This document shows positions 3,814 to 34,545 of a stretch of 64,000 bases of DNA, piece by piece (positions within the stretch are counted from its first letter, which is position 1; each line of letters begins with the position of its first letter). The notes below the pieces were generated by a model. It made no database searches. It saw only the letters and a list, made by a program, of their open reading frames with translations, and was not told the DNA's origin. The DNA is from Thermosynechococcus sp. (lineage in GTDB: Bacteria; Cyanobacteriota; Cyanobacteriia; Thermosynechococcales; Thermosynechococcaceae): positions 1,519,527 to 1,583,526 of the forward strand of contig NZ_AP024678.1 of NCBI RefSeq assembly GCF_025999095.1, read 5' to 3'. The position numbers and the translations under genes are program-made.

Positions 3814-6471
3814 ATGAATGCCCCAACCTTGAACAGTTACCCACCCGTTCAAAGCCTTGCCGATCTGGAAGGGCTGATTGAGCGCGTCCAACGGGCGCAG
3901 CGTCAGTACGCCCAATTTACCCAAGAGCAAGTGGATCACATTTTCCACCAAGCAGCCATGGCGGCCAACCAAGCACGGATTCCCCTGGCCAAACACGCCG
4001 TAGCCGAAACTGGCATGGGGGTTGTCGAAGATAAAGTCATTAAAAATCACTTTGCTTCGGAATACATCTACAACAAGTACAAAAATGAGAAAACCTGCGG
4101 CGTCATTGAGGATGATCCCATTTTTGGTATCCAAAAAATTGCCGAACCGGTGGGGATCATTGCTGGTGTGGTCCCGGTCACGAACCCCACTTCAACGACC
4201 ATCTTCAAGGCACTGATTACCCTGAAAACTCGCAATGGCATTATCTTTTCGCCCCACCCCCGCGCAAAGGGCTGTACGGTTGCAGCAGCCAAGGTGGTGT
4301 TGGATGCAGCGGTCGCTGCCGGCGCGCCCCCCGATATTATTGGCTGGATTGATGAGCCGACGATTGAACTCTCTCAAGCCCTGATGCAGCACCCGCAGAT
4401 CAAGCTGATTTTGGCCACGGGGGGGTCGAGTATGGTCAAGGCAGCCTATTCCTCTGGCCATCCGGCGATCGGGGTCGGGGCGGGGAATACCCCCGTGCTC
4501 ATTGATGCCACAGCCGACATTCCCACGGCGGTGAGTTCGATTCTCCTCAGTAAGGCCTTTGACAATGGCATGATCTGTGCCTCGGAGCAGGCAGTGATTG
4601 TTGTTGATGAGATTTATGACGCGGTCAAAGCTGAGTTTCAACGGCGAGGTGCCTACATTCTCTCCCCCGAGGAACGGCAGCAGGTGGCCCAACTACTGCT
4701 GAAGGAGGGTCGCCTCAATGCCGCCATTGTTGGTCAATCGGCAGCCACCATTGCAGCAATGGCCAATATCCAAGTGCCGCCAGAGACGCGGGTACTCATC
4801 GGCGAAGTGAGTGAAGTGGGGCCGCAGGAGCCATTTTCCTATGAGAAACTCTGTCCGGTATTGGCCTTATATCGGGCACCCCAGTTCCATAAGGGGGTGG
4901 AGATGGCGGCCCAGTTGGTGAATTTTGGGGGCAAGGGGCATACCTCGGTGCTCTATACCGATCCCCGCAATCAAGATGATATTGCCTATTTCAAATACCG
5001 CATGCAAACGGCGCGGGTTCTGATTAACACCCCTTCTTCCCAGGGGGCAATTGGAGATCTCTACAACTTCAAGTTAGATCCGTCGCTGACCCTTGGTTGT
5101 GGCACCTGGGGCGGCAACGTCACATCGGAAAATGTTGGTCCCCGTCACTTGCTGAATATCAAAACGGTGAGCGATCGCCGGGAAAATATGCTTTGGTTCC
5201 GGGTGCCGCCCAAAATCTACTTCAAACCCGGCTGTTTGCCCATTGCCCTGCGTGAGCTGGCAGGGAAAAAACGCGCCTTCCTCGTGACTGATAAACCCCT
5301 CTTTGACTTGGGCATCACTGAACCAATTGTGCACACCCTTGAAGAACTGGACATCAAGCACGACATCTTCCATGAGGTGGAGCCAGATCCAACCCTCAGT
5401 ACTGTCAACCGCGGCCTAGAGTTGCTGCGGCAATATCAGCCCGATGTAATTATTGCCGTGGGGGGTGGCTCACCTATGGATGCGGCCAAGGTGATGTGGC
5501 TGTTGTACGAACACCCAGAGGTGGAGTTTGACGGCCTTGCCATGCGCTTCATGGATATTCGCAAGCGGGTGTATCAACTGCCTCCCTTGGGTCAAAAGGC
5601 AATCCTGGTGGCAATTCCCACCACCTCAGGGACAGGTTCGGAAGTGACCCCCTTTGCCGTGGTTACCGACGATCGCGTGGGGATTAAATACCCCTTGGCG
5701 GACTATGCCCTTACCCCAACGATGGCGATTGTGGATCCCGACTTGGTGCTGCACATGCCCAAGAAACTGACGGCCTATGGTGGCATTGATGCGCTGACCC
5801 ACGCCCTGGAGGCCTATGTGTCGGTGCTCTCGACGGAGTTTACGGAGGGACTGGCTCTAGAGGCGATCAAACTGCTCTTTACCTACCTACCCCGGGCCTA
5901 TCGCTTGGGGGCTGCCGATCCAGAGGCGCGGGAAAAGGTCCACTACGCCGCTACGATCGCCGGCATGGCCTTTGCTAATGCTTTCTTGGGGGTTTGCCAC
6001 TCGATGGCCCACAAACTGGGCTCTACCTTCCATGTGCCCCACGGCCTGGCGAATGCACTCATGATTTGCCATGTGATTCGCTACAATGCCACCGATGCTC
6101 CCCTGAAACAGGCGATCTTCCCGCAGTACAAGTATCCCCAAGCCAAGGAGCGCTATGCCCAAATTGCCGACTTCCTTGAATTGGGCGGCACAACTCCAGA
6201 GGAAAAAGTGGAGCGTCTCATTGCGGCAATTGAGGATTTGAAAGCCCAGTTAGAGATTCCCGCCACGATTAAGGAGGCCCTCAACAGTGAGGATCAAGCT
6301 TTCTATGAGCAGGTGGAGAGCATGGCCGAACTGGCCTTTGACGATCAGTGCACGGGGGCCAATCCCCGCTATCCGCTGATCCAAGACCTCAAGGAGTTGT
6401 ATATCCTTGCCTATATGGGGTGTCGGCGGGAGGCGGCAGCCTACCATCCCGAGGAAGCACCTGCGAGTTGA
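3814..6471 (+). CDS. adhE: Bifunctional aldehyde/alcohol dehydrogenase AdhE
   Basis: About 885 residues, close to E. coli AdhE (891). The N-terminal half is a CoA-acylating acetaldehyde dehydrogenase with its catalytic cysteine in DNGMICASEQ. The C-terminal half is an iron-type alcohol dehydrogenase with GGGSPMDAAK and the metal ligand region HALEAYVS...HSMAHKLG. Together they reduce acetyl-CoA to ethanol with two NADH. I chose the ATG at 3814 because AAGGAG at 3802-3807 precedes it; an in-frame TTG at 3784 is less likely. The gene sits directly after pflA and its stop overlaps the next start (TGATG), so the three genes are probably co-transcribed. Confidence 0.95.
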   Translation: MNAPTLNSYPPVQSLADLEGLIERVQRAQRQYAQFTQEQVDHIFHQAAMAANQARIPLAKHAVAETGMGVVEDKVIKNHFASEYIYNKYKNEKTCGVIEDDPIFGIQKIAEPVGIIAGVVPVTNPTSTTIFKALITLKTRNGIIFSPHPRAKGCTVAAAKVVLDAAVAAGAPPDIIGWIDEPTIELSQALMQHPQIKLILATGGSSMVKAAYSSGHPAIGVGAGNTPVLIDATADIPTAVSSILLSKAFDNGMICASEQAVIVVDEIYDAVKAEFQRRGAYILSPEERQQVAQLLLKEGRLNAAIVGQSAATIAAMANIQVPPETRVLIGEVSEVGPQEPFSYEKLCPVLALYRAPQFHKGVEMAAQLVNFGGKGHTSVLYTDPRNQDDIAYFKYRMQTARVLINTPSSQGAIGDLYNFKLDPSLTLGCGTWGGNVTSENVGPRHLLNIKTVSDRRENMLWFRVPPKIYFKPGCLPIALRELAGKKRAFLVTDKPLFDLGITEPIVHTLEELDIKHDIFHEVEPDPTLSTVNRGLELLRQYQPDVIIAVGGGSPMDAAKVMWLLYEHPEVEFDGLAMRFMDIRKRVYQLPPLGQKAILVAIPTTSGTGSEVTPFAVVTDDRVGIKYPLADYALTPTMAIVDPDLVLHMPKKLTAYGGIDALTHALEAYVSVLSTEFTEGLALEAIKLLFTYLPRAYRLGAADPEAREKVHYAATIAGMAFANAFLGVCHSMAHKLGSTFHVPHGLANALMICHVIRYNATDAPLKQAIFPQYKYPQAKERYAQIADFLELGGTTPEEKVERLIAAIEDLKAQLEIPATIKEALNSEDQAFYEQVESMAELAFDDQCTGANPRYPLIQDLKELYILAYMGCRREAAAYHPEEAPAS

Positions 6472-7160
6472 TGTGGCGTTATATTCCCCCCTTGGCAGCG
6501 CCGGGGAAGGTACAAATGGCGGTGGATTGCTGGCTCTGGCAGGGGAGCGATCGCCCCTGTCTGCGGTTTTACACCTGGTCACCGCCAGCCATTTCCCTTG
6601 GCTACCGTCAACGGCAAATTCCGCAGCAGTGGCAACACCAGCACTGGCAAGGGCAACCTGTAGAGCTGGTGCGGCGACCCACCGGTGGGCGAGCTGTTTT
6701 ACATCAAGGGGACCTCACCTACAGTTTGGTGGTGTGGGGGTTAGGGCAACGGCGGCAGCAGGTCTATGCCGATTTGTGTCAATTTCTAAAGGTGGGATTT
6801 GAGCGCCTAGGGTGGCCACTGCAGTTGGGACAGGAACGCTATCGCGCCAACGCTCCCATCAATTGCTTTGCACGGGCAACTGTGGCCGATTTAGTTTTAC
6901 CGACTGGCGAGAAGGTCATTGGCAGTGCCCAAGCCTGGCGGGGCGATCGCGTCCTTCAGCACGGTTCGATTGTCCTTACCCCTGACCCCAATCTATGGCA
7001 GCAGGTCTTTGGCAGTGTTCCGCATCGGCAGTCCCTTCCCCCTTTGCCGGTGGTGCAAAGGGCTCTCTTGGACGCCTTTGAGGCGCAGTGGCAGGTGAGC
7101 CTGACCCCAGAACCCTTGAGCGATCGCGAGTGGCAAGACATTAACAGAATTTTGAACTGA
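6471..7160 (+). CDS. Lipoate-protein ligase / octanoyltransferase family protein
   Basis: A 229-residue member of the biotin/lipoate A/B transferase fold. The hallmark RRPTGGRAVLHQGDLTYSLV matches the ligand-binding loop of LplA and LipM, and a lysine-containing KVIGSAQAWRGDRVLQHGS follows. It lacks the extra C-terminal domain of E. coli LplA, so octanoyl transfer (LipM-like) or scavenged-lipoate attachment are both possible. The ATG at 6471 shares one base with the adhE stop, indicating translational coupling. An open frame continues upstream inside adhE but has no reason to be used. Confidence 0.82.
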   Translation: MWRYIPPLAAPGKVQMAVDCWLWQGSDRPCLRFYTWSPPAISLGYRQRQIPQQWQHQHWQGQPVELVRRPTGGRAVLHQGDLTYSLVVWGLGQRRQQVYADLCQFLKVGFERLGWPLQLGQERYRANAPINCFARATVADLVLPTGEKVIGSAQAWRGDRVLQHGSIVLTPDPNLWQQVFGSVPHRQSLPPLPVVQRALLDAFEAQWQVSLTPEPLSDREWQDINRILN

Positions 7161-30047: not shown

Positions 30048-30839
30048 TTAGACCATCACGGTGTTTAGCAGGAGCAGGGCACTGCCACCAATGAGGGCTT
30101 CGAGGCCATACCGCTGGGAATAGGTATAGGTGCAGGGGCGCAACACTCGAAACTGCCCTTGAAAGCCCCGACTGACCAAAGCAAGCTGAATGGCTTGATA
30201 GCGATGCAGCGATTGTTGCAGAAGCTGAGCTGCTAAGAGACTGACACTGAACAGCCAGCGCGATCGCCGTTGATAGCCTCCCCGCGCCCGCTGCGCCAAC
30301 TGCAGCGTGAAGGCAGTTTCGAGCAGGGTGAAGATATAGCGGTACATCAGCATCAAGACATCGAGGACGAAAGCGGGAACGCCCCAGCGCTCAGCCACTG
30401 CCAACAGTGCTGGGAAGGGAGTCGTCAATAAAATCAATAGTAAACAGGTGCTGGCAACAATTGTCCGCAGTCCTACCGTTAAGCCTTGGTGCAATTTCTC
30501 GGCACTAATAAAAAGCGACCAGCCCATTAGGGAGATGTCACTAAGCACCACTTGCCCCGAAGCCCTTAAAGTCTCCGTCGGGATGATTTGCACCACTAAC
30601 CCTGGCAAACTCACTAGCCAAAACACAGCCACTGGAGCTAAGAGGGTGAAGTAAACCCGCCACGGAATGCGGGCATAGCCAAGAATCCAAAGGCTAAGCC
30701 ATAGCCAAAGCAAGCTCTGGATAAGGGGGCGAGCAAAAAATGTAAATAACAGGCTGGCGATCGCAAAAATCAGCTTTTGTTCGGGGTGCAGATGCCGCAG
30801 ACCATTGGTGTAGGCGTAGGTATCGAGGTGATGGTGCAT
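30048..30839 (-). CDS. cbiQ: Cobalt ECF transporter transmembrane component
   Basis: 263 residues with about five membrane helices and the T-component coupling motifs, seen as LQLAQRARGGYQ and LALVSRGFQGQFR, which dock on the ATPase. The gene immediately follows cbiN and precedes cbiO. The family transfers energy from CbiO to the substrate-capture unit CbiMN. Confidence 0.95.
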   Translation of the reverse strand: MHHHLDTYAYTNGLRHLHPEQKLIFAIASLLFTFFARPLIQSLLWLWLSLWILGYARIPWRVYFTLLAPVAVFWLVSLPGLVVQIIPTETLRASGQVVLSDISLMGWSLFISAEKLHQGLTVGLRTIVASTCLLLILLTTPFPALLAVAERWGVPAFVLDVLMLMYRYIFTLLETAFTLQLAQRARGGYQRRSRWLFSVSLLAAQLLQQSLHRYQAIQLALVSRGFQGQFRVLRPCTYTYSQRYGLEALIGGSALLLLNTVMV

Positions 30840-31145
30840 TCACGCCCTAGGATCCTTAGAATGTCGAGGGGTTGCTGAACGGGCGTGGTACTGACCGGCA
30901 ATAAAGCCGATGACCCCCGCCCCTAGGGCTGCTTGTACCGCAAATAGGAGCGATTCCACTTCACTACTGGGCGGCTCAAAAAGGGGTTTTGCCCACGGCT
31001 GAAAGTCTGGCGCCACCTCCTGAATCAAGTCCTGCGCTTGGGCATCGGCACCTTCAAAATTCCCCTTGACGAAAAGTAAAGGAAAGATGCCCAGGGCAAC
31101 GGTTCCTGCTCCGAGTAGGAGGGCCGCTATTTTTTTATTCATCAA
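30840..31145 (-). CDS. cbiN: Cobalt ECF transporter accessory protein
   Basis: 101 residues with an N-terminal and a C-terminal hydrophobic helix flanking a periplasmic loop carrying GNFEGADAQAQDLIQEVAPD, the CbiN hallmark. CbiN loads cobalt into CbiM. Its presence supports cobalt over nickel as the substrate. cbiQ starts on the base after this stop. Confidence 0.95.
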   Translation of the reverse strand: MMNKKIAALLLGAGTVALGIFPLLFVKGNFEGADAQAQDLIQEVAPDFQPWAKPLFEPPSSEVESLLFAVQAALGAGVIGFIAGQYHARSATPRHSKDPRA

Positions 31146-31251
31146 AAACCTCCACCATCTTTCTGCTGCACAGCCTCGAGTGCCAGTTTTTACCAGTTTT
31201 TAAGATCAAACGTCCCAGAAATAACCATCCTTCAGTAGCCAGTAGAGTCCT

Positions 31252-32046
31252 TTAGGGCAACTCTTCCTCAGGCAAGAGTCTTAAGGCCTGCAGTTCTGCA
31301 ACACAGTAGGTCGTCAACCAGTGCCACACCAAGACCGTCAGCAGCCCTTCACTGATGGCGAGGGGAATCTGTGTGACTGCAAAGAGGGTGCCAAATTTGG
31401 CAAAGGAAGTGGCCACGCCACCCCCGCTGTCGGGAAAGGCCAAGGCCAATTGGAAAGACGTCAAGGTGTAGCTACCTACATTGCTAATGAAGCTAGCCCA
31501 AAACAGAGCGATCGCCGGCTTTGCTTTCAAACGAGACGCGCCGCAGTAGGTAAGCCAAGCCAACCACGGTCCTACGACAGCCATCGAAAAGGCATTGGCT
31601 CCCAGTGTCGTCAATCCACCATGGGCAATGAGGAGGGCTTGAAAGAGCAACACCAGTGTCCCCAATACTGCCATCAAGGGAGGCCGAAAAAGAACCGCCC
31701 CAAGGGCAATCCCCATGGGATGGGAACAGCTGCCAGTCACCGAGGGAATCTTCAAAGAAGAGACAACAAAGGCATAGGCGCCTGCCAAGGCAACCAGTAG
31801 GGTGGATTCGGGGTGTTGTTTGATCTGTTGCTGCAATGACCACAGTCCCCATGCCAAGAAGGGGAGAAAGGCCAGCCACCAACCCACAGCCCACCCTAAG
31901 GGCAAAAAGCCCTCGCTGATGTGCATGGCCAAGGCGGGATTAGGACTCGCTACCACGAGGTATGTAGTCAGAAGGGCGATCGCCCCCAGGGACGCATATC
32001 GCTTTGCTTGACTACGTTGGACCATATTACTAGACATAGCCTCCAA
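31252..32046 (-). CDS. cbiM: Cobalt ECF transporter substrate-capture protein
   Basis: 264 residues. After about 40 residues with a signal-like hydrophobic stretch ending NPALA comes MHISEGFLP. In CbiM/NikM the Met-His at the mature N-terminus binds the metal, so cleavage after ALA is expected. The rest has about seven helices and GSCSHPMGIALGAVLF. Starts at codons 1, 4 or 8 are all possible. It heads the operon. I looked for a cobalamin riboswitch upstream (32047-32260) and did not see its core sequences. Confidence 0.94.
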   Translation of the reverse strand: MEAMSSNMVQRSQAKRYASLGAIALLTTYLVVASPNPALAMHISEGFLPLGWAVGWWLAFLPFLAWGLWSLQQQIKQHPESTLLVALAGAYAFVVSSLKIPSVTGSCSHPMGIALGAVLFRPPLMAVLGTLVLLFQALLIAHGGLTTLGANAFSMAVVGPWLAWLTYCGASRLKAKPAIALFWASFISNVGSYTLTSFQLALAFPDSGGGVATSFAKFGTLFAVTQIPLAISEGLLTVLVWHWLTTYCVAELQALRLLPEEELP

Positions 32047-32176
32047 TCCAAGTAGCTCCCATCTTAGGGGTCAACCGATTGCCTGACTATCCCTAGTGGG
32101 GGCTTCAACGGATAAGGAAAACAGCCACCCATAGCTCAAGAATTGATTGGTAGCCAGATCTCAAAGCTGAAATATG

Positions 32177-32236
32177 CATAGACTTTGATGTAGTCGGTAT
32201 AACAAAATAGAAGTCTAATGGGATTATTAAATCCAT
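32177..32236 (+). promoter_or_regulatory. Cluster of inverted repeats upstream of the SepF-like gene
   Basis: GACTT (32181-32185) pairs with AAGTC (32211-32215). GGATT and AATCC flank ATTA at 32221-32234. TCAAAG (32161-32166) is inverted as CTTTGA (about 32183-32188). The area lies between divergent cbiM and the SepF-like gene and could serve either. Individual repeats are short and partly expected by chance. Confidence 0.3.
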
Positions 32237-32269
32237 AGGTACAGTTGCTATGTTCCCAAGGGGGGTGTC

Positions 32270-32575
32270 ATGAGTGAACTAACTGCCTTTAGTCATTCCT
32301 TGAGCAGCGGTTATGAAGTAGTGGTGATCAAGCCGCAGTCCCTCAGTGATACCACCTTGATTGTGCAAGCGCTGCGGGCGGACAAGGCAGTGATTCTCAA
32401 TCTGGAGCACCTTGATGTGGCTGAGGCACAGCGCATTTCCGATTTTGCCGCGGGTAGCACCTATGCCATCAATGGCCATCAATCGCGCCTTGGGGATGGC
32501 GTCTTTCTCTTTACCCCCAACGTGATTAATATCCAGGAACGCACAGCAACACCGACACCCGCCGGACTGGTCTGA
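32270..32575 (+). CDS. Minimal SepF-like protein
   Basis: Only 101 residues, but nearly all match the SepF core (DUF552): VVVIKPQSLSDTTLIVQAL, KAVILNLEHLDVAEAQRISD, AAGSTYAINGHQSRLGDGVF and LFTPNVINI. SepF tethers FtsZ to the membrane. Normal SepF is 150-200 residues with an N-terminal membrane-binding helix and linker; both are absent here. A full-length SepF (cdv2) should exist elsewhere in a cyanobacterium, so this is probably a paralogue that could pair with it. ATG follows AAGGGGGG. The next gene starts 9 bases after the stop. Confidence 0.82.
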   Translation: MSELTAFSHSLSSGYEVVVIKPQSLSDTTLIVQALRADKAVILNLEHLDVAEAQRISDFAAGSTYAINGHQSRLGDGVFLFTPNVINIQERTATPTPAGLV

Positions 32576-32584
32576 GCAAAGCTG

Positions 32585-32974
32585 TTGATGAACCCTGAGG
32601 ATCTGCTCACCGTCAGCGAGTGTCAAGAGATTGATCAACTGCTTTTGCCCGCAGCAGATCGCTTTGCGATTCGAGTGGCGGTCTATGCCCAGCGCTATCT
32701 GCGTACCAAGGCTGAAGGGAAACCCCTCGAAGACCTGACAGAAGCTCAAGTGTATGAACTCATTGCCGCCGATCCGCGGTTGCAAGTGGAGGAAGCACGC
32801 CAGGGGGGATTTATGACCTGGTATGGCCAAATTCTCGTCAGTGCCCTCAAGCAACTACGGCAAATAGCTGAAAGGGAGAAGGTGCCTATTGCCGAGCTAA
32901 CCATTCCCCAGATTAGTCGCTGGTTTGAGCAGCAGTGTCAGGCACGCTTGCGATCGTCCCCGCCGTTACCTTAA
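32585..32974 (+). CDS. Conserved hypothetical protein
   Basis: 129 residues, helix-rich and polar, without membrane segments or signal peptide. No family recognised. It appears to follow the SepF-like gene in one transcript. ATG codons at 32585 and 32588 are both possible. Its C-terminus overlaps the convergent recF end by 62 bp. Confidence 0.6.
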   Translation: MMNPEDLLTVSECQEIDQLLLPAADRFAIRVAVYAQRYLRTKAEGKPLEDLTEAQVYELIAADPRLQVEEARQGGFMTWYGQILVSALKQLRQIAEREKVPIAELTIPQISRWFEQQCQARLRSSPPLP

Positions 32975-34052
32975 GAATTTGCGCCTGCTTGCGCCAAGGG
33001 GTTGCGAACGGGGCAAGGTGGGTGGTGGTAATCAGGGTTTGGTGGCGATCGCCCATCACCTCCAGCAAGATTCCCTGTCGCTGCAAATCCAGTTCGGCAA
33101 GAACATCGTCCAGGAGCAAGAGGGGCACATCCCCCACTACCCGTTCCAGCAGTTCCAGTTCTGCCAACTTCAGTGCCAATACCAGTGTGCGCTGTTGACC
33201 TTGGGAAGTAAATTGGCGAGCCTGTTGCCCGTTGAGCCAAAAGCCGACATCGTCACGGTGGGGACCCACAAGGCTGGTTTTTTGCAATCGTTCAATCGGA
33301 CGTCGCATCGCCAAAGCCTCATAAAAGGCGGCAGCAATGGCTTCAGAGGTGCCAGCGCCAAGGGGCACATGGCTTTCATAGGTCAAGGTCAAAACCTCGC
33401 GATCGCCACTCAGCACACCCTGCCAATGGTGTGCCAAGGGCCCTAAGCGCTCAATCAGTCGCTGTCGGCGTCGGATGATGCGGGTGCCATAGATCACCAA
33501 CTGCTGATTCCAGGCTTGCCAGAGGGCTTCATCCCACGGTTGACTGTCAGCCTGTTTGAGGAGCGCATTCCGTTGGCGCAGGGCTTTTTGGTAGGTTTGC
33601 AGGAGCTGGCTATAGAGGGGTTCTAGTTGTACCAAAATCCGATCTAACCAGTGGCGGCGAATGGCCGGTGTGCCCCGCACCAGTTCCAAATCCAAGCAGG
33701 AAAATTCCACGACATTGAGTTGACCCAGAAATTCCGCAGTGCGCTTGACCGTACAGCCGTTGACCCGTAGGACACGACCTGAGAGGGGGCGCAAGCTCAC
33801 CGCCAGATCAACGGGGATGCCTTGGCGCTCAAGGGTGGCTTCAATTTGGGCGCTCTCTTGTCCCTGCTGAATCAGGTCGCGATCCCGATGGGTGCGATGG
33901 GATTGCAATGTGGCCAGCCACTCCACAGCCTCCAGCAGATTAGACTTGCCCTGGGCATTGTCCCCCACGACGATGGTTTTCGGCGCAGCAAACCTGATCC
34001 ATGCATCACTGTAGTTACGGAAGTGGCGCAGATGGAGTGATTGAAGAAACAC
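32913..34052 (-). CDS. recF: DNA replication and repair protein RecF
   Basis: 379 residues. Start LQSLHLRHFRNYSDA is typical, Walker A is GDNAQGKSNLLEA, the signature region is SQGQQRTLVLALKLAELELL, and Walker B is LLLLDDVLAELDL. RecF is an SMC/ABC-like ATPase that loads RecA at single-stranded gaps with RecO and RecR. It is not next to dnaN or gyrB as in many bacteria; instead a DUF427 gene lies 10 bp upstream on the same strand. Confidence 0.95.
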   Translation of the reverse strand: MFLQSLHLRHFRNYSDAWIRFAAPKTIVVGDNAQGKSNLLEAVEWLATLQSHRTHRDRDLIQQGQESAQIEATLERQGIPVDLAVSLRPLSGRVLRVNGCTVKRTAEFLGQLNVVEFSCLDLELVRGTPAIRRHWLDRILVQLEPLYSQLLQTYQKALRQRNALLKQADSQPWDEALWQAWNQQLVIYGTRIIRRRQRLIERLGPLAHHWQGVLSGDREVLTLTYESHVPLGAGTSEAIAAAFYEALAMRRPIERLQKTSLVGPHRDDVGFWLNGQQARQFTSQGQQRTLVLALKLAELELLERVVGDVPLLLLDDVLAELDLQRQGILLEVMGDRHQTLITTTHLAPFATPWRKQAQILKVTAGTIASVPDTAAQTSD

Positions 34053-34062
34053 TTAGCAGCCC

Positions 34063-34545
34063 TTACCAAGCCCACGTTCCCGGTGCCCCCTTAAATGGGC
34101 CAACAATCTCCGGAGTGATCCAGCCACCATAGAAGGCCCCCGGCTGCGGAATCACCACCACACCATCCACGGTGCATTCATCCATCAAAGCAGCATAGAA
34201 GGCAATGTAGTGGCGGATCGGCGCAAAGGCAGGGGTGGGTTTCGGGTAGAACCAGGCCGCATTAGCCGCCTGGCGATCGCCCACCTTGACGTGGTAGTAG
34301 GCTCCTTGTCCTTTCCATTCACAAAAAGTTTGCCGTGCCGAGGGCACCAGATACTGCAACTGTACATCCTCTGGCGGAAAGTAATACACCGGGGGGTGAC
34401 TGGTTTCAAGGACCCGCTGTCCCCGCCGGGTGTCGGCAATCACCACGCCATTAAAGACCACCCGCAGGTGTTTTGCCGTGGGTTCCACACGGGGTGGACG
34501 GGGATAGTCCCAAACTGATTCTTGGCCAGGGGGAATCCGTTGCAT
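34063..34545 (-). CDS. DUF427 domain protein
   Basis: 160 residues with the DUF427 pattern: VVFNGVVIADTRRGQRVLETSHPPVYYFP, CEWKGQGAYYHV and the C-terminal IVGPFKGAPGTWAW (fragments). The family is small, beta-rich and biochemically uncharacterised. recF starts 10 bp after its stop, so co-transcription is likely. The start ATG at 34545 has no in-frame competitor. Confidence 0.85.
   Translation of the reverse strand: MQRIPPGQESVWDYPRPPRVEPTAKHLRVVFNGVVIADTRRGQRVLETSHPPVYYFPPEDVQLQYLVPSARQTFCEWKGQGAYYHVKVGDRQAANAAWFYPKPTPAFAPIRHYIAFYAALMDECTVDGVVVIPQPGAFYGGWITPEIVGPFKGAPGTWAW

Follow-up and report, generated by a model that had tools for sequence, protein, structure and literature searches.

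A short, core-only SepF paralogue in Thermosynechococcus that may act on FtsZ

What could a cyanobacterium do with a second SepF that consists of little more than the core domain? The question arises from the window analysed here, a stretch of 64,000 nucleotides of the Thermosynechococcus sp. chromosome, in which a gene of 101 codons (short sepF, 32270..32575, plus strand, ATG start) encodes a SepF domain at residues 17-88 without N-terminal helix segment or linker. The match covers the Pfam SepF profile PF04472 end to end (positions 1-72 of 72; E 1.5e-24, 86.4 bits at a curated cut-off of 27) and thus places the protein in the SepF domain family; a scan with the NCBIfam models gave no match. 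Solved SepF structures are found by phmmer (best E 1.1e-10), and in an AlphaFold2 model based on an alignment of 23 relatives (mean pLDDT 79.3) the core is predicted with confidence. Reading upstream from the ATG, the frame runs into a stop at 32228-32230 and contains no ATG, GTG, or TTG in between. Thus, the usual N-terminal segment of SepF is not encoded in this gene. When both SepFs of the genome are aligned, the core starts at residue 16 in short SepF and at residue 87 in the full-length protein. The profile match, the upstream stop, and the early start of the core bear out the initial annotation, which had described a protein without the membrane helix and the linker of SepF. Judged by its sequence, short SepF is a member of the SepF domain family but departs from SepF as the membrane anchor of FtsZ in having neither the N-terminal membrane-binding helix segment nor the long linker from helix to core. 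On the minus strand, an ORF of 191 aa (32279-32854) lies opposite short sepF and the ORF following it, and is read as their antisense shadow. An Rfam scan of 30500-34500 gave no match, and viral relatives were not confirmed in one scan.

The initial annotation had proposed to look for a full-length SepF elsewhere in the genome, as the lack of any other would make the short protein the sole SepF of the divisome. In the 2.50-Mb chromosome, PF04472 exceeds its cut-off at two places, namely at the short copy and at C1:2164178-2164393; a third match is at chance level (E 0.6). The second match sits in an ORF of 188 aa starting with MLGKLRDLMG. A full-length SepF is therefore present on the same chromosome and short SepF is a second copy, which aligns to it without gaps over 73 core positions. 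FtsZ has one match on the chromosome, in an ORF of 418 aa that ends with KPKLDIPEFLQRRRPTP. Its C-terminal end, KLDIPEFLQRRRPTP, contains the motif DIPEF with the same D-x-P-x-F spacing as in the FtsZ tail of C. glutamicum. The search of this genome with the FtsA model gave nothing over the cut-off (best 59.3 bits versus 175.85), and a published survey lists cyanobacteria as having SepF without FtsA (PMC8178401).

K125 and F131 are contact residues of C. glutamicum SepF for the FtsZ tail, and their double mutant has no detectable binding (PMC7118173). In an ungapped alignment with the C. glutamicum SepF chain, K125 corresponds to R73 (codon 32486..32488, plus strand) and F131 to F79 (codon 32504..32506, plus strand) of short SepF. 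The contact residues are thus present, the arginine as a conservative exchange, and binding of FtsZ is a prediction from them. Among 13 distinct orthologues forming the window's clade, position 73 is arginine in 12 and lysine in one, and position 79 is phenylalanine in all. The 47 full-length ORFs (defined by a length of at least 160 aa, except for L127 and L142, which were reassigned manually to the non-full group) have arginine in 46 and phenylalanine in 47 cases. In 21 further ORFs classed as non-full, each of these residues is found in 13, and this group includes a fusion to an FGE-sulfatase domain (L142), ORFs of uncertain start, and proteins of 134-147 aa with a helix-like start (L038, L143, L144). 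Glutamine (6), glutamate (6), or lysine (5) occupies position 73 in most of the family's remaining 22 short SepFs, and only 10 of these have phenylalanine at position 79. From these residues, the window's clade looks FtsZ-competent, whereas several other short SepFs do not, so that FtsZ binding need not be a property of the entire short class. The conservation of R73 and F79 is, however, no proof of a working pocket, and both residues are common in full-length SepF by mere descent.

The explanation that we favour, and to which we give an even chance, is that short SepF is a soluble core-only SepF paralogue acting on FtsZ. Either as a homodimer or paired with full-length SepF in a mixed dimer, it would bind the DIPEF tail of FtsZ. 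Because the usual anchor is missing, it may bundle or occupy FtsZ away from the membrane, or dilute the tethering, and the outcome would be a tuning of Z-ring assembly for which the product of the following gene would not be needed. The suggestion of the initial annotation that the short protein could modulate full-length SepF or FtsZ assembly is plausible because the signature residues for FtsZ binding have been kept. C. glutamicum SepF without its membrane and linker parts still bound and bundled FtsZ and was lost from midcell (PMC7118173). SepF of Anabaena is described as essential and critical in its level, and as limiting FtsZ polymerisation (PMC12288457), and a paralogue that tunes dosage would fit to such a critical level.

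The gene is not young. The 101-aa frame starting with the ATG is present in all 11 genomes of the genus, with 82-99% identity to the window protein, and at least four of these genomes have an additional in-frame start 8-9 codons upstream. The median dN/dS within the genus is 0.065 (51 finite values of 55 pairs), compared with 0.148 for the neighbouring gene, counted as 128 codons (55 of 55 pairs), and 0.098 for full-length SepF, for which the value comes from 3 pairs of only three genomes. By this measure, short sepF is under strong purifying selection. Among the 29 genomes of the family, close orthologues are found in all 11 of the genus and also in those of three further genera (G278, G306, and G302), and 28 of the 29 have two or more SepF matches. 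The core-domain tree was built with a quick method from 73 columns of 103 distinct ORFs, taken from the fetched loci and not from all hits; the midpoint root is for drawing only, and 46 of the 90 inner branches are under the drawing threshold, so that the deeper forks are weak. In this tree, the 13 distinct proteins of the window's clade group together (SH-aLRT 95) and are nested in a set of 35 short SepFs from the family, which a branch (93) separates from the full-length SepFs and from the remaining short ones. The labels full and short each change three times. Accordingly dated by its sequences, short sepF is no recent truncation but old and strongly conserved, and its clade predates the genus.

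Core-only SepFs recur across the cyanobacteria. A SepF match is present in 287 of 291 sampled genomes of the phylum, and at least two are present in 32, of which the 28 outside the family were searched again. Their second copies are mostly short frames, in addition to two full-length copies in G011, frames of 138-145 aa in five genomes belonging to a single family, and frames of 349 aa in G111 and 374 aa in G123. A stop lies inside the SepF match in two short copies (G223 and G272) and in a third copy of G181. G266 encodes two short SepF ORFs on the same strand about 1 kb apart (L139:5162-5452 and 6411-6758), and in G111 an ORF of 345 aa (L142:4752-5789) is a fusion of the SepF core with an FGE-sulfatase domain. 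A common neighbourhood of short sepF was not seen across the genera, except that G306 and G302 have in common a divergent gene, about 505 aa long and without Pfam match. In G314 (L109:5594-6731) and G308 (L110:6525-7709), short sepF lies on the same strand 3' of two genes, one of the PAM68 family (Pfam DUF3464, scanned in G308 only) and one that we take to be rpsO-like.

Alternatively, the SepF core may have been repurposed, still dimerising and acting outside Z-ring assembly, with an N-terminal heptapeptide that docks to another partner. Most short SepFs of the family start with M-x-(N/D)-(L/I/V)-(L/I/V)-(P/S)-(L/F/I). A strict pattern is present in 20 of the family's remaining 22 short SepFs and in 2 of the 13 proteins of the window's clade, a looser one in 21 of 22 and 13 of 13, and neither in any of the 47 full-length and 21 other ORFs; these counts are descriptive only, as the patterns were composed after viewing the alignment and the sequences are related by descent. 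From its sequence the heptapeptide may have a docking or a membrane role. A repurposed core would be in agreement with the related short SepFs that have mostly Q, E, or K at position 73 and often no phenylalanine at position 79, with the fusion in G111, and with the varied contexts of six copies on Acaryochloris plasmids. It does not fit well to the window's clade itself, in which all 13 proteins keep R or K at position 73 and phenylalanine at position 79, and we regard it as unlikely for short SepF, though still a serious alternative.

The plasmid copies come from 12 plasmid records that matched the query, six of them from Acaryochloris, and the best place of each of these six was read. All six core-only SepFs of Acaryochloris, which were read after the patterns had been composed, start with the heptapeptide. 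At four of the six loci, the gene is convergent with genes for related Lys/Ala-rich proteins of 252-300 aa (L170:5300-6058, L171:5285-6070, L172:5282-6175, and L174:5282-6184), which have no Pfam match over the cut-off and leave the impression of histone H1. At two of the six, it is followed by a gene of the PBP1A type. Rather doubtful, in our view, is the more general proposal that the natural core-only SepFs of the family form a class of their own, with the conserved heptapeptide M-x-N-(L/I)-(L/I)-P-(L/F), which has degenerated in Thermosynechococcus, taking the place of the membrane helix. These proteins would be soluble Z-ring regulators that either compete with full-length SepF for the tails of FtsZ or bring in a new partner, and the large Acaryochloris plasmids would carry their own copies, possibly adjusting the division of the host.

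It is harder to imagine that short SepF is membrane-active through its short N-terminus and provides a second, redundant anchor of FtsZ. The N-terminal residues are hydrophobic, and three of six short N-termini tested singly, which are orthologous or related, have hydrophobic moments of 0.50-0.57. Within the genome of the window, the moments of the two SepFs are alike (0.34 for the short and 0.40 for the full-length protein), so that weak membrane binding of the short N-terminus would be possible. However, only 12-15 residues precede the core, residues 1-12 of short SepF are modelled with pLDDT under 50 and without a predicted helix, and the median moment is 0.34 for 56 short ORFs versus 0.54 for 47 full-length ones. 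We therefore consider such an anchor quite improbable.

The initial annotation also named the 129-residue protein encoded next to short SepF as a possible partner. This ORF (32585..32974, plus strand) starts with TTG 9 bases after short sepF, and an ATG at 32588 would give 128 aa. It overlaps at its 3' end with a convergent, presumably recF-like gene on the minus strand (32913..34052), and the divergent gene upstream of short sepF (31252..32046, minus strand) is presumably cbiM-like. The 128-aa frame is kept in all 11 genomes of the genus, although in two of them its first codon is not a start and the ORF starts upstream. A dedicated two-protein module would be suggested by the spacing of 7-12 bases between short sepF and the ATG of the 128-aa frame in 9 of the 11 genomes, which points to a single transcript there. 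In the other two (G308 and G314), however, contig coordinates place the genes about 92 kb and 1.7 Mb from each other, with the 128-aa gene still beside the recF-like gene. Nor do they adjoin in any of the three other genera: the distance is about 29 kb in G306, and the genes are on different contigs of the draft assemblies in G278 and G302. In addition, matches to the 128-aa protein (E up to 1e-8) occur in 21 sampled genomes outside the family, and none of these has a second, short SepF match at E 0.001, a threshold that more diverged copies could escape. Twenty of these have a single SepF match, in an open frame of 196 aa or more in 17 of the 20 (the 17 for which rows are listed), and the two matches of G011 are in frames of at least 192 aa each. 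Synteny and co-occurrence thus speak against a dedicated partner, and we think a two-protein module very improbable. By its distribution, the 128-aa gene is read as an independent gene that, in one branch of the genus, ended up next to short sepF.

The 128-aa protein is modelled as all-helical with six helices (pLDDT 91.9). The window protein has no match in Pfam or NCBIfam, and 26 aligned relatives give scattered weak matches to these collections, the best one to Pfam with 2.4e-4 in one member. Against the PDB sequences, the family profile found nothing below E 0.07, and a match of the single sequence to glutathione synthetase (E 0.012) was taken as chance. Against the PDB, Foldseek found nothing below E 1.8 for the model, and the VIA-align scores of Z 5.2 at most, to helices of Cre recombinase, are in a range that is common for helical models according to the tool. 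Elsewhere in cyanobacteria, relatives of about 84-93 aa are encoded (L029-L033), and the long form (window 32588-32971) has, by appearance, two similar halves; it is cyanobacterial and belongs to no named family.

That short sepF is a decaying, functionless fragment of sepF, as the missing helix and linker and the lack of any sigma-70-like promoter in 31900-33100 (0 versus 1.0 expected from shuffles) might suggest, is hardly credible given the low dN/dS, the frame kept in 11 of 11 genomes, and a clade older than the genus. In the same region, one terminator-like site lies within the gene, at or below the shuffled expectation.

Short SepF shares the domain family with the known cyanobacterial SepF (Cdv2; Slr2073, Synpcc7942_2059, and Alr0487). 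The latter is full-length and essential in Synechococcus and Synechocystis (PMC7766704), whereas the window protein is present in addition to such a SepF and has neither helix segment nor linker. It shares its core-only architecture with the engineered C. glutamicum SepF, which is no longer targeted to membrane and midcell, but that form is man-made and non-complementing, while short SepF is natural and coexists with a full-length SepF; the C-terminal helix of the C. glutamicum structure is not evident in the short SepF model (PMC7118173). A SepF domain is present also in archaeal SepF, which binds the FtsZ tail, as is predicted for short SepF, but has a different dimer interface and is the FtsZ anchor in archaea (PMC8178401); the archaeal structure 7al1 matches short SepF only weakly in sequence (E 0.24). 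Streptomyces SepF2 and SepF3 are SepF-like paralogues in addition to a SepF, as is the case here, and SepF2 is linked to the Z-ring via DynB (PMC8748795). Although Streptomyces belongs to a different phylum and the likeness is drawn from the published description, additional SepF copies are thus not without precedent. Prior work reportedly exists also on SflA and SflB of Streptomyces. In the literature, which was covered in part, we found no published account of a core-only SepF in cyanobacteria.

If this explanation is true, a natural SepF without anchor beside the full-length one would be one way to tune the tethering of the Z-ring without FtsA, and short SepF would be a ready separation-of-function protein. 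The genes annotated as 'cell division protein SepF' would then comprise several different things.
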